Assembly: GCA_917880885.1 (NCBI GenBank)
Contig: OU862910.1
Location: forward strand, 11,048,710-11,112,709
Reading direction: 5' to 3'
DNA from: Limnephilus marmoratus
Lineage: Eukaryota > Arthropoda > Insecta > Trichoptera > Limnephilidae
DNA: 64,000 nt
Shown here piece after piece: positions 15,185-42,956 of the stretch; positions within the stretch are counted from its first letter, which is position 1; the number at the start of each line of letters is the position of its first letter. The position numbers were made by a program, and so were the translations under genes. A model generated the notes under the pieces. That model ran no database searches. It saw only the letters and a program-made list of their open reading frames with translations, and was not told where the DNA came from.

Positions 15185-15660
15185 TTTCATAAGGTCGAAA
15201 TATTTCCGCTTTGCAATAAAATCCAAATAAATGGAATATTTCTGATAGTATCCGAAAACTAAAAATTGTTTTTGAAAGGCGATGAAATACGCTTTTAAAT
15301 TTTGAAATCCGAAATAAACCTTTGCTTTTCGAATATAAAAATTTTGAACGCACACATAAATTTTTTTAAAATGACTCATCTTACGTTTTTTCTAACTAAA
15401 ATTACTGATAACGAAAAAAATAAAAACACGTACATATTTATTACACAAATGTATTGTTAACATTTCCGTCACCTCACTTTTTTATTGTTTCATGTAAAAA
15501 TAATTAATAGATACAAAATTCCATAAGTTTCATAAACTTTGGTTTTATAAAGGTGTACAATTCCATTATTTTGTGGTTAACTTTTGAATTTGAATATAAA
15601 GTTTGATATTTTCTTTCTCTTTCGAACACCGTTTAAAACTTATTTCTCAACATAATAGTA
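15185..15660. repeat. Dispersed repeat R, copy 2 (uninterrupted)
   Basis: This copy runs through the site where copy 1 carries a Helitron, so it preserves the pre-insertion sequence. Two minus-strand frames (15071-15379 and 15093-15353) cross it, without recognised domains. Confidence 0.65.
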
Positions 15661-22574: not shown

Positions 22575-22925
22575 TAATTTTTAGAAATTTAATTATAATT
22601 AAATTTGATTATCGAGTTCTGCGAGTATTTTAGTTACAGCTGTTTCGACTTGTAAGGTCATTTTCAAACTGTGGTGAAGCCCACATAATCACTCTCTCAA
22701 TAATTAGTGTCTCTGCAAATTGGATTAACCGGTAATAAATCAATTTACGTTAAAAAATTGACATTTAAAATATTATAAATAAGTCGTCCGTAAGTGGAAT
22801 CACCACAGTTTGAAAATGACCTTACAAGTCGAAACAGCTGTAACTAAAATACGTTCTAAAATACTTGCAGAACTCGATAATAACATTACCAAATTTAATT
22901 TTAAATAAATTTCTAAAAATTAAAA
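22575..22925. mobile_element. Foldback element with degenerate hammerhead arms
   Basis: Arms of about 90 bp are inverted: 'GTTACAGCTGTTTCGACTTG' with 'TAAGGTCATTTTCAAACTG' on the left, and the complement on the right (22805-22850). Each arm reads, toward its outside, as a hammerhead-like half: TGAAAA, GAC/GTC stem II, GAAA, CAGCTG palindrome, TA, then ACT pairing with AGT. The core has C to T and G to A changes, so activity is unlikely. It abuts the Helitron at 22963. Confidence 0.65.
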
Positions 22926-23139
22926 TGTATTCCTATGAATTAAACACAAAAACAATTAATAATCAATATATATTATAAATGAAAGTGTATGAAAGTGTGC
23001 GTCCCGCTAAAACTCGGACACGAGTCCCGATACGATCAAGGGAGTTAAATGGTGTGGAATCTTTCTATCCCCCATCCATGAAGAAGTTTTACCTGTTTTT
23101 ACCTGAAGGGCGCGCTTTTGAAGAAGATTTTGCCCTCTA

Positions 23140-23212
23140 GAAAGTTCTAGAATAGCCCAGAACATTCGAGAGCATTCCACAACATCCCGGAATACTCTGG
23201 AATGTTCTGGAA
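23140..23212 (+). promoter_or_regulatory. Heat-shock element array (HSF binding sites)
   Basis: GAA/TTC units alternate on an exact 5-bp grid. Cluster 1 is GAA-TTC-GAA (23140-23152). Cluster 2 is GAA-TTC-GAG-TTC (23160-23177). Cluster 3 is GAA-CTC-GAA-TTC-GAA (23190-23212). Ten of the twelve units are perfect. Three or more alternating units are the established binding site for heat-shock factor trimers. Confidence 0.85.
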
Positions 23213-23268
23213 TATTGTGGATAATTGTAAGCCTTTTTTGTATGGCTGAGGCTACCCACTGGTAGGAG

Positions 23269-23307
23269 TATATAAAGCAAGATCCGTCGTGGGTTCGAAC
23301 GTCAGTT
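23269..23307 (+). promoter_or_regulatory. TATA box and TCAGT initiator downstream of the HSE array
   Basis: TATATAAAG at 23269-23277 is followed by TCAGTT at 23302-23307. If the A at 23304 is +1, the TATAAA starts at -33, the usual arthropod spacing. Transcription would leave the Helitron through its 3' end at 23352. Confidence 0.65.
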
Positions 23308-23352
23308 CAATCTCATATCAACTCCCTGAGCGAAGCCGGGTACACCAGCTAG

Positions 23353-23967: not shown

Positions 23968-25262
23968 CGAGGGGAGGTCCAAAAGTTCGTGGAATGGAGG
24001 GGATGGAGTGGGGATAGGGGCTCTCGTTTAGTGTCATACTAATTGGTGACTCATCATTGGTATATAAACTAAGTTTCAGCCCTATTGAGTTATTCGTTTA
24101 CGAATATTCGCCTGCTAAACAAGTCAATCCGGAAGAAAACTGAAACTATGGAGAAAATTGAACACCGTGCTGTGATAAAATTCCTTACCAAGCAAGGAAA
24201 GAACGCTCAGACCATTTGAATGAAATGAAAACCGTTTATGGGGAACAGTGTCCTAGTAAATCAATGATTTACAAGTGGCATGGTCTTTTTAAACAGGGTC
24301 GGGAGTCGATTGAAGACGACCCCCACTCAGGAAGGCCAGTTGAGGCCACCACATCAGACATAGTCGAAAAAGTGGAAAAAATTGTACTGGAGGACACCCG
24401 TTTGAAGAAAAAACAGTTATCTGCAAACAGTTGGAGCATCAGATACCACCATTTTGCCAAGCCTACATGACCACCTGGGTATGACAAAAGTCAGTCCAAG
24501 ATGGGTACCGAGAATGCTCACGCCGCTTCAGAAACAACAGCGCGTCGATGCGTCAAAACAATTTTTGGAGTTGTGTGGAGACGAACCTGCACAGATTTTG
24601 GAACGGATTGTTACCGGAGATGAAACATGGGTTCATCACTTTGAGCCTGAGTTCAAACAAGAGTCCATGCAATGGCATGTAAAGGGTACACCACCGCCAA
24701 AGAAATCCAAAGTGTCGGAGTCGGCTGGAAAGTTGATGGCTACTGTTTTTTGGGATTGTGAGGGGATAATACACATTGATTGCAAAAAAAGGGAAGGACC
24801 ATAACCGGAGAATACTTCGCAACGATACTAGAGAAATTAAAGGAGGCCATCAAAGAAAAACGTCGAGGAAAATTGACCAAGGGTGTGTTGCTCTTGCAAG
24901 ACAATGCGCCAGTTCACAAGAGCAAAGTTGCAATGGCTGCTCTGCACAATCATGGCTTCGAAACACTAGTTCACCCACCCATAAGTCCAGATCTGGCCCC
25001 AAGTGATTTTTATTTGTTCCCCAATTTAAAAAAAGACTCAAGGGAAAGGAAATTTTCCGACAACAATGAGGAAAAGGAGGCAATTTTAGCTAATTTTGAG
25101 GCAAAAGATAAAAGATATTTTTACGATGGTTTATAAAAAATTATTCATAGATCTGATAAATGTATTCAGCTTAAGGGTGATTATATTGAAAAGGAAAAAT
25201 ATATTTATTGTTTCATTTTATTTAAAACCCTTTCATTCCACGAACTTTTGGACCTCCCCTCG
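23968..25262 (+). mobile_element. Full-length mariner transposon (1295 bp), inactivated
   Basis: The terminal inverted repeats CGAGGGGAGGTCCAAAAGTT (continuing 'CGTGGAATG') are perfect at both ends and flanked by TA duplications at 23966-23967 and 25263-25264. The length is normal for mariner. It is inserted immediately next to the 5' end of a SINE family 1 copy. Confidence 0.96.
24148..25194 (+). pseudogene. Mariner transposase (DD34D), frameshifted
   Basis: It begins at ATG 24148 with 'MEKIEHRAVIKFL'. Domains in order are the first helix-turn-helix with 'SKSMIYKWHGLFKQG', the 'DDPHSGRPVEA' linker, a second helix-turn-helix, 'WVPRMLTPLQK', and the catalytic core with 'VTGDETWVHH' (first D), 'LQDNAPVH' (second D) and 'SPDLAPSDFYLF' (third D, 34 residues after the second). 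All three catalytic aspartates remain. Frameshifts occur near 24218, near 24430 and in an A run at about 24785, and a TAA follows at 25134, so no full protein is made. Confidence 0.93.
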
Positions 25263-42070: not shown

Positions 42071-42290
42071 AGTCGAAGTATGATTCAGTTAAATATGATC
42101 GAATCGGATAGGGACACGTTAGCTCAATTGGTAGAGATGCGTTCCAGCAAGGCGAAGATGGTGGGTTCGAGTCCCAGATGTGAACGCATTTTTTCTGTTT
42201 TCAGAATTTCTATTGAGTTTCGCTAATATTGCCTTCATTTAAATTAAATGTTACATTTTGAGGTTTTACTTATTAAGTTAAAAATAAAAG
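42071..42290 (+). mobile_element. tRNA-SINE family 3, isolated copy
   Basis: The head 'TTAGCTCAATTGGTAGAGA' (from 42119) and B box 'GGGTTCGAGTCCC' are followed by the tail 'TTTCTGTTTTCAG', 'TTGAGTTTCGCTAATATTGC' and 'TTTTGAGGTTTTACTTA'. It has the best-preserved B box of the family and shows that the elements at 1.7 and 2.0 kb are separate copies rather than one palindromic element. Confidence 0.82.
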
Positions 42291-42956
42291 TTAATACAAA
42301 AATAATATGCTTGATATTATGTTTCCACAAAGATAAAAAAATATATCTCCAGGTATTTGTACTGATAATCAAGTCGTTTGGTTCCGATAGTACATTCATA
42401 ATATTTCAATGTCAATAGTACGTACGCAATGAGTCCCCCATTAATCATATCAGATATCTGTATTTGAGTCATATACCTGTCTATCGAAGCTTTGATACAT
42501 ATATTTTAAAATAAGTTCATCGTTCATTGATTCATCCACAAAACAAATACTTTCTTTAACGGTAATTTTGTTATCCAAAGATAACAACGGATTATCATTA
42601 TTTAATGATGGCGACACAAATTCGCCGGAAACTTAAATTGTATCGTATTGATAAAACAAAAACTGATAAATTGAAGACTCAGGAAGTTCAAGCAGAAGCT
42701 GCTTGCATAAAAACATGCAGTAGAAGAAAGAACAAACCCCGTAAATCATCGATAAAGTGACACACGTGGAAAATTTCGAAGCCAAGTGAAGGAACTTTGA
42801 AATATTACATCGAACATCGGCAAGGAAAACAGAATAAGTCATAGTTGATAGATGGCACATCCTTCATTTTCCCCTTAAACCGAAAAAAGGAGAAATATTC
42901 TCGCATATTTGCCCCACAAAAGATTGCTACACACACTAAACGTGAAAGATAGTTGA

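Follow-up and report, generated by a model that had tools for sequence, protein, structure and literature searches.

The window analysed here, meaning the whole stretch of 64,000 nucleotides, comes from the caddisfly Limnephilus marmoratus, where it occupies C5:11048710-11112709 of chromosome 5. On its forward strand, at 22963-23352, lies a non-autonomous Helitron of 390 bp with TC...CTAG ends, inserted between A and T: an A precedes the TC at 22963 and a T comes after the CTAG at 23352. The initial annotation of the window had proposed a 390-bp Helitron at this place, and the element is present as described, with Helitron ends at both sides. Just upstream of it, a long imperfect inverted repeat, noticed by eye at 22611-22870, is probably a palindromic DNA transposon. 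On the downstream side, at roughly 1 kb from the putative promoter described below, two fragments of mariner-type transposase (PF01359, PF13358) are found at 24406-25136 on the plus strand, in two frames. These were the two matches obtained when nine ORFs of the window were scanned with Pfam, the other seven being without match; ten further ORFs yielded one helix-turn-helix match below the Pfam cut-off, and no recognisable host gene was met among the 19 window ORFs scanned. Finally, a tRNA-like match of 30.9 bits at 2015-2087, for which ARAGORN gives no tRNA, is held by a repeat that recurs at 42071-42299 and is probably a tRNA-derived SINE.

Anatomy of the element

Read along the plus strand, the Helitron begins with a conserved 5' segment of about 170 bp (22963-23134), recovered in an own-genome search with 22963-23130 and devoid of HSEs. 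It is followed at 23135-23227 by a continuous HSE array in which 19 GAA/TTC pentamers, 10 of them perfect, share a single 5-bp register. After a spacer of about 40 bp comes a TATA box, TATATAAA, at 23269-23276, supported by TATA-like matches in family copies, and then an initiator-like TCAGT at 23302-23306, which recurs in the copies either unchanged or as one-base variants and whose A at 23304 is the putative start. In the window copy, this A lies 35 bp from the first T of TATATAAA. The remaining 46 bp (23307-23352) form a 3' terminal segment that ends in GCGAAGCCGGGTACACCAGCTAG and is covered for the most part by the 49-mer used below for a genome count. A putative transcript from 23304 would exit the element after 49 nt. 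Three or more alternating 5-bp units upstream of a TATA box, one of the criteria for an insect heat-shock promoter, are found here and, with 19 units some 40 bp from TATA, the layout is that of a strong promoter of this type.

The initial annotation had described three clusters comprising 12 units in strict 5-bp phase, 10 of them perfect. The phase and the ten perfect units stand, whereas the three clusters of 12 units give way to a single register of 19. Likewise, the TATA box and the TCAGT that it had reported at arthropod spacing are both present, but the spacing was worded slightly generously, as the distance from TATA to A is 4 bp longer than the 31 bp of three host hsp70 genes. The claim that all promoter parts are directed outward through the Helitron 3' end agrees with the orientation seen here and with the constant distances in many copies.

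In the window array, 47 of the 57 core bases match GAA/TTC pentamers, and its score of 13.75 is reached by none of 200 first-order-Markov shuffles of the element, the best of which attains 4.0. When windows of six units are considered, the element reaches up to 16/18, compared to 14 elsewhere in the window (at 15514) and to peaks of 13-15 in eight whole-window shuffles. The exceptional feature is therefore the length of the run, the excess in six-unit windows being modest.

A dispersed family and its long forms

The window element belongs to a non-autonomous Helitron family that is dispersed in the genome of L. marmoratus. Searching the genome with the whole element gave 56 matches among the best 40 of 4082 first-look candidates, a number which, like the 2463 candidates of the second search below, is not a copy count. 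The 3' 49-mer at 23294-23342 is found at 614 places (321 + 293) with at most three mismatches, compared to 0 for the reversed control; the match is exact at 25 of the 614 places, window copy included. Copies differ on average by 8% from the consensus, which indicates that many of them are old, while the least divergent one differs by 1.7% at non-CpG sites (n=66). The TC...CTAG patterns occur at 21 of 66 loci, and among those a T comes after CTAG in 21 and an A before TC in 17. At the 3' end, where Helitrons have a hairpin some 10-12 nt before the terminus, the fold is weak, reaches up to the CTAG and is not significant (z=0.00 over the terminal 50 nt and -0.09 over the terminal 113 nt). No match spanning joined flanks, which would have represented an empty site, was obtained among the fetched loci, and an exact 33-mer of the family was not found in viral contigs. 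At six of the first 30 loci (L004, L011, L020, L022, L023 and L029), the 5' end of the element directly adjoins another Helitron, of one of three kinds as judged by eye, and the AT-rich point of contact is the same in each.

All 30 loci fetched with the whole-element query, the window copy being one of them, have arrays whose best run is of 5-26 units and which each exceed their own 200 shuffles. Ten further loci carry arrays of 10-41 units spanning up to 203 bp, which makes the window copy middling in array length. Since the whole-element query itself contained the array, the search was redone with the array-free 5' part (22963-23130): all 40 candidates scored matched, among 2463 first-look candidates, and each of the 30 loci fetched in this way has an HSE array downstream. 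Four of these loci were already in the first set, and this second set was scored without shuffles, the control stretches scoring 1.5-3.0 in 29 of the 30 loci. In addition, 14 of the 25 exact places of the 3' 49-mer, picked by that 49-mer alone, all have arrays, of 11-40 units, each above 100 shuffles. The weakest arrays are those of L018 (5 units, with a score of 5.25 compared to 4.0 for the best shuffle), L053 (7 units) and L059. In L059, the stretch scanned shows 5 units, whereas the main array, with a score of 17.0, lies further downstream, in the intended control stretch. By their coordinates, L042 and L008 are one locus.

Copies lacking the GAA/TTC phase, which according to the initial annotation would refute its reading, did not turn up, an array being present at every locus examined (30 + 10 + 30 + 14, four shared). 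The copies with intact CTAG ends and an array that it had suggested looking for do exist, TC...CTAG being present at the 21 loci mentioned and arrays at all loci examined. Its proposal that the sites could spread with the element is in line with a dispersed Helitron family that carries a phased HSE array, a TATA box and an initiator-like motif.

Regarding the core promoter, TATA and initiator were located in the copies by simple patterns, the accepted one-base variants of the latter including TCAAT, TCATT and TCTGT. A TATA-like match is present in 22 of 30 copies, and in 17 of these 22 it stands 39-42 bp behind the array end; TCAGT or a one-base variant occurs at the family distance from the TATA match in 16 of the 30. 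The other copies comprise eight without TATA match, two more (L011 and L027) without initiator pattern, and four (L006, L013, L015 and L023) in which the initiator pattern was matched elsewhere or indels are present. Among the 14 copies chosen by their 3' end, 10 have a TATA-like match, with a distance from TATA to A of 35 bp, or 38 bp in L101. In many copies, the TATA box hence stands at a near-constant distance from the array, and so does the initiator-like motif from the TATA box.

Besides these short elements, the family comprises long forms. A search of the genome for six perfect units in phase gave 3570 places, compared to 2 when the pattern was reversed; on average there are about two such places per Mb (3570 in 1630 Mb). 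The places listed individually all fall within C1:2.50-4.63 Mb, where the list stops, and do not constitute a random sample of the genome. Compared to that average, HSE-rich clusters are crowded in this region, with 23 of them, delimited by eye, in 2.1 Mb. Nine of the 23 were examined, of which eight have the family 5' end and the ninth (L117) matches the long-form array. Three clusters studied over their full length are family members of 2.4-3.0 kb with the same 5' and 3' ends, laid out as a 5' end, an HSE-rich array of about 1.5-2.3 kb, a second 5'/promoter piece, an HSE-like stretch and the 3' end. Of these three, one has TATATAAA, another TATAAA and the last neither. The long form at C1:4.52 Mb contains 25 arrays with 298 in-phase units, 168 of them perfect, compared to none in 20 shuffles, and it has no ORF of more than 133 aa. 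As for the six further clusters, the 5' end of the family is present in five, with 82-85% identity over about 171 bp, while in the sixth, L117, 85% identity over 154 bp is to the long-form array, the 5' part being interrupted. Tandem units of 81 and 111 bp are also carried by the long forms.

Origin of the array

Several origins can be considered for the array, one of them being the autonomous Helitrons of the same genome. Ongoing or recent rolling-circle activity has been reported for L. marmoratus in the accessible text of PMC13045387. In the present analysis, at least 146 matches to PF14214 were found genome-wide (150 of 170 candidates scored), many of them in open frames of 1,400-1,900 codons. 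Two autonomous copies of a family A and two of a family B were fetched, the latter two being 98.8% identical over about 5.9 kb. Scanning of A1, A2 and B1, three copies among the 146 matches, disclosed no 3-unit HSE in 10 kb each, and the array was apparently not inherited from the autonomous elements seen. In family B (L098 and L100, with a 1454-aa frame), the 5' end TCATTACATAGTATAAAATGAAGT resembles the TCAATATATATTATAAAAGAAAGT of the element at 19 of 24 positions, and the 3' end reads GCGAAGCCGGG...GCTAG and then T. The resemblance of the ends extends over short stretches and does not reach significance (BLAST E 0.5-0.7), which leaves family B as a guess for the partner; its copy L098 has no HSE array, unlike the non-autonomous family. 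Upstream of the ORF of L098, which lies on the reverse strand, a tandem repeat of about 264 bp was observed at approximately 1838-2569 of the reversed stretch.

These data make it highly improbable that the array is a heat-inducible transposase promoter of the kind known from Caenorhabditis Helitron1, with an autonomous partner that uses the same promoter to make Rep-helicase under heat and of which the short elements are deletion derivatives. Such an origin has its nematode precedent (PMC6927752, accessible text) and could accommodate the location at the 3' end, since on a circular intermediate transcription from there would cross the junction and enter the 5' side. However, A1, A2 and B1, which represent two families, lack even a 3-unit HSE, the two PF14214 places in the listed range of C1 have no listed six-unit HSE cluster closer than 79 kb, and the long form at C1:4.52 Mb has no ORF above the 133 aa mentioned.

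Host hsp genes are another conceivable source, and the initial annotation had indeed offered a captured heat-shock promoter as one of its readings, to be checked against the hsp promoters of the species. The upstream regions of three intronless hsp70, seven Hsp70-like and ten small hsp genes were therefore compared with the 3' part of the element. The likeness lies in the arrangement: in the three intronless hsp70 genes (L071-L073), the same order is met, HSEs being followed by TATATAA (CTATATAA) and then by a CAGTTT start region, which reads ATCAGTTT in two genes and GGCAGTTT in one. By eye, the short stretches GAACRTCAGTT and GAAATTTCTNGAA are also common to both. However, these genes give no significant alignment with the element, their distance from TATA to A, counted by eye, is 31 bp compared to 35 in the Helitron, and their best HSE runs stop at 5 units, while the window copy has 19 and other copies as many as 41. 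More generally, host hsp arrays are mostly of 3-7 units, with one weak 12-unit run.

In 18 of the 20 upstream regions, the local score was equalled by 15 to 100 of 100 shuffles. The regions of L075 and L076 had nominally better scores, for each of which a single shuffle in 100 did as well; with 20 tests made, this is weak, and both regions belong to Hsp70-like genes without strong HSE array. In addition, Helitron ends were sought in the 20 upstream regions and none was found. With no convincing alignment among these 20 regions and with arrays mostly much shorter on the host side, the proposal that a Helitron took up a host hsp promoter and then spread is not supported, and we regard it as highly improbable. 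On the host side, a large expansion of intron-split Hsp70-like genes was noticed at C9:1.9-5.2 Mb and C23:39.7-40.1 Mb; the 27 longer HSP70 matches (19 on C9 and 8 on C23) mostly begin near profile position 62-65, the first exons having been matched separately.

The lengths of the arrays point to a different history. Measured between two anchors in 47 copies, the array length can be divided by 10 in 17 copies and by 5 in 22, and it is nine modulo ten in 8; the 47 were taken from 70 loci, 23 of which were dropped (3 flagged as duplicates, the rest without anchor). This clustering on multiples of ten and on nine modulo ten is what is expected for an array that grows and shrinks by 10-bp slippage. 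Slippage of this kind within the Helitron is thus the probable way in which the array grew, in preference to its capture from the host.

Helitrons often acquire internal tandem repeats, and slippage could also be the whole explanation: a 10-bp GAAnnTTCnn unit would have slipped as in a minisatellite, its HSE likeness being incidental and TATA and TCAGT being short enough to be there by chance. Along with the preference for 10-bp steps, the 81- and 111-bp tandem units of the long forms, the lack of an array in the three scanned autonomous Helitrons and the spacers, whose predominant CA, TG and TA would fit a single unit in decay, are all consistent with such a by-product. However, the 5-bp alternation of GAA/TTC is preserved in two distinct repeat architectures, the 10-bp short form and the 81/111-bp long form, perfect six-unit sites outnumber the reversed pattern as reported above, and TATA and the initiator-like motif stand at near-constant distances in an arrangement resembling the host hsp70 core. 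Taking both sides into account, we consider this explanation unlikely, though it deserves more attention than the other two.

Sequence conservation bears on the same question. The GAA/TTC cores are more conserved than the spacers (0.875 compared to 0.805, and 0.822 compared to 0.746), a difference that CpG decay in CG spacers may also cause. When the phase was rotated with anchors outside the array, the HSE phase came out as the best of five on one side and as the second on the other, an indecisive outcome that leaves room for the minisatellite. Given this mixed result and the alternative of CpG decay, selection for HSF binding appears plausible from these alignments, but is not proven.

Possible function and comparison with nematode Helitrons

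HSE-loaded Helitrons as such are already known, and the initial annotation was right in recalling them from nematodes. According to the accessible text of Garrigues et al. 2019 (PMC6927752), HSEs are carried by Helitron1_CE, HelitronY1_CE and HelitronY4_CE of Caenorhabditis, for which HSF-1 binding and heat induction were measured; no enrichment of HSE-Helitrons was seen in the non-Caenorhabditis UCSC genomes with annotated Helitrons, and the discoverers considered that these elements are possibly restricted to Caenorhabditis. As far as that text goes, the nematode and the caddisfly Helitrons have in common dense clustered tandem HSEs dispersed genome-wide, those of Caenorhabditis being overlapping HSEs, with more than 100 in some copies. 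They differ in that autonomous copies carry HSEs in Caenorhabditis, whereas in the caddisfly the HSEs are found in non-autonomous elements and the three scanned autonomous copies are without. Unlike the Caenorhabditis case as described there, the caddisfly elements also have a TATA box and an initiator-like motif at a near-constant distance behind the array. No insect Helitron with HSEs was found in a literature search that covered titles and the starts of abstracts in open papers, Repbase and Dfam being outside its range, and 'heat shock' is absent from the accessible text of two caddisfly genome papers. What is new in the caddisfly family is the insect host, the non-autonomous nature and the attached core promoter.

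HSF trimers bind alternating GAA/TTC units cooperatively. From the arrays, the geometry of the motifs, the order of parts in host hsp70 promoters and the signs of transposition, and in preference to the explanations weighed above, we think it rather probable that this dispersed non-autonomous Helitron family carries an HSF array together with a minimal promoter that faces out of the 3' end. Several points speak against this reading: the missing TATA matches (8 of 30 and 4 of 14 copies, and one of the three long forms with neither variant), the TATA-to-A distance of 35 bp compared to 31 in host hsp70, the age of many copies, the lack of arrays in the three autonomous copies scanned, and the ambiguity of the conservation data. 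Upon heat, HSF trimers would bind the array cooperatively, and Pol II would then start near 23304 and read through the 3' end into the flanking DNA. Outward heat-inducible transcription from intact copies would be the likeliest function, and DNA next to an insertion may thereby come to respond to heat. With less support, binding of HSF could open the chromatin of the element and help a trans-acting Rep-helicase to reach it, which would explain why arrays are kept and amplified in non-autonomous elements; such help in mobilisation is, we infer, the likeliest reason for the spread of the family. More tentatively, and as something possible but rather doubtful, hundreds of outward heat-inducible promoters would be scattered in the genome, the arrays having evolved independently of those of nematodes because HSF binding aids mobilisation.

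The existence of an insect case with long arrays and an attached core promoter indicates that HSEs and Helitrons are associated outside nematodes as well, and HSF binding may accordingly be of use to the transposon instead of being an accident of one lineage. In a freshwater insect, the family would also be a possible source of regulatory variation that responds to heat and, if the reading holds true, the insect heat response would include a large set of Helitron-made transcripts. In terms of neighbouring genes, 36 ORFs of at least 95 aa lie downstream of 56 copies; no host gene was recognised beside copies, 24 of the 36 ORFs having been looked at by eye and few flanks having been scanned. To the eye, the ORF downstream of L064 looks LINE-like.
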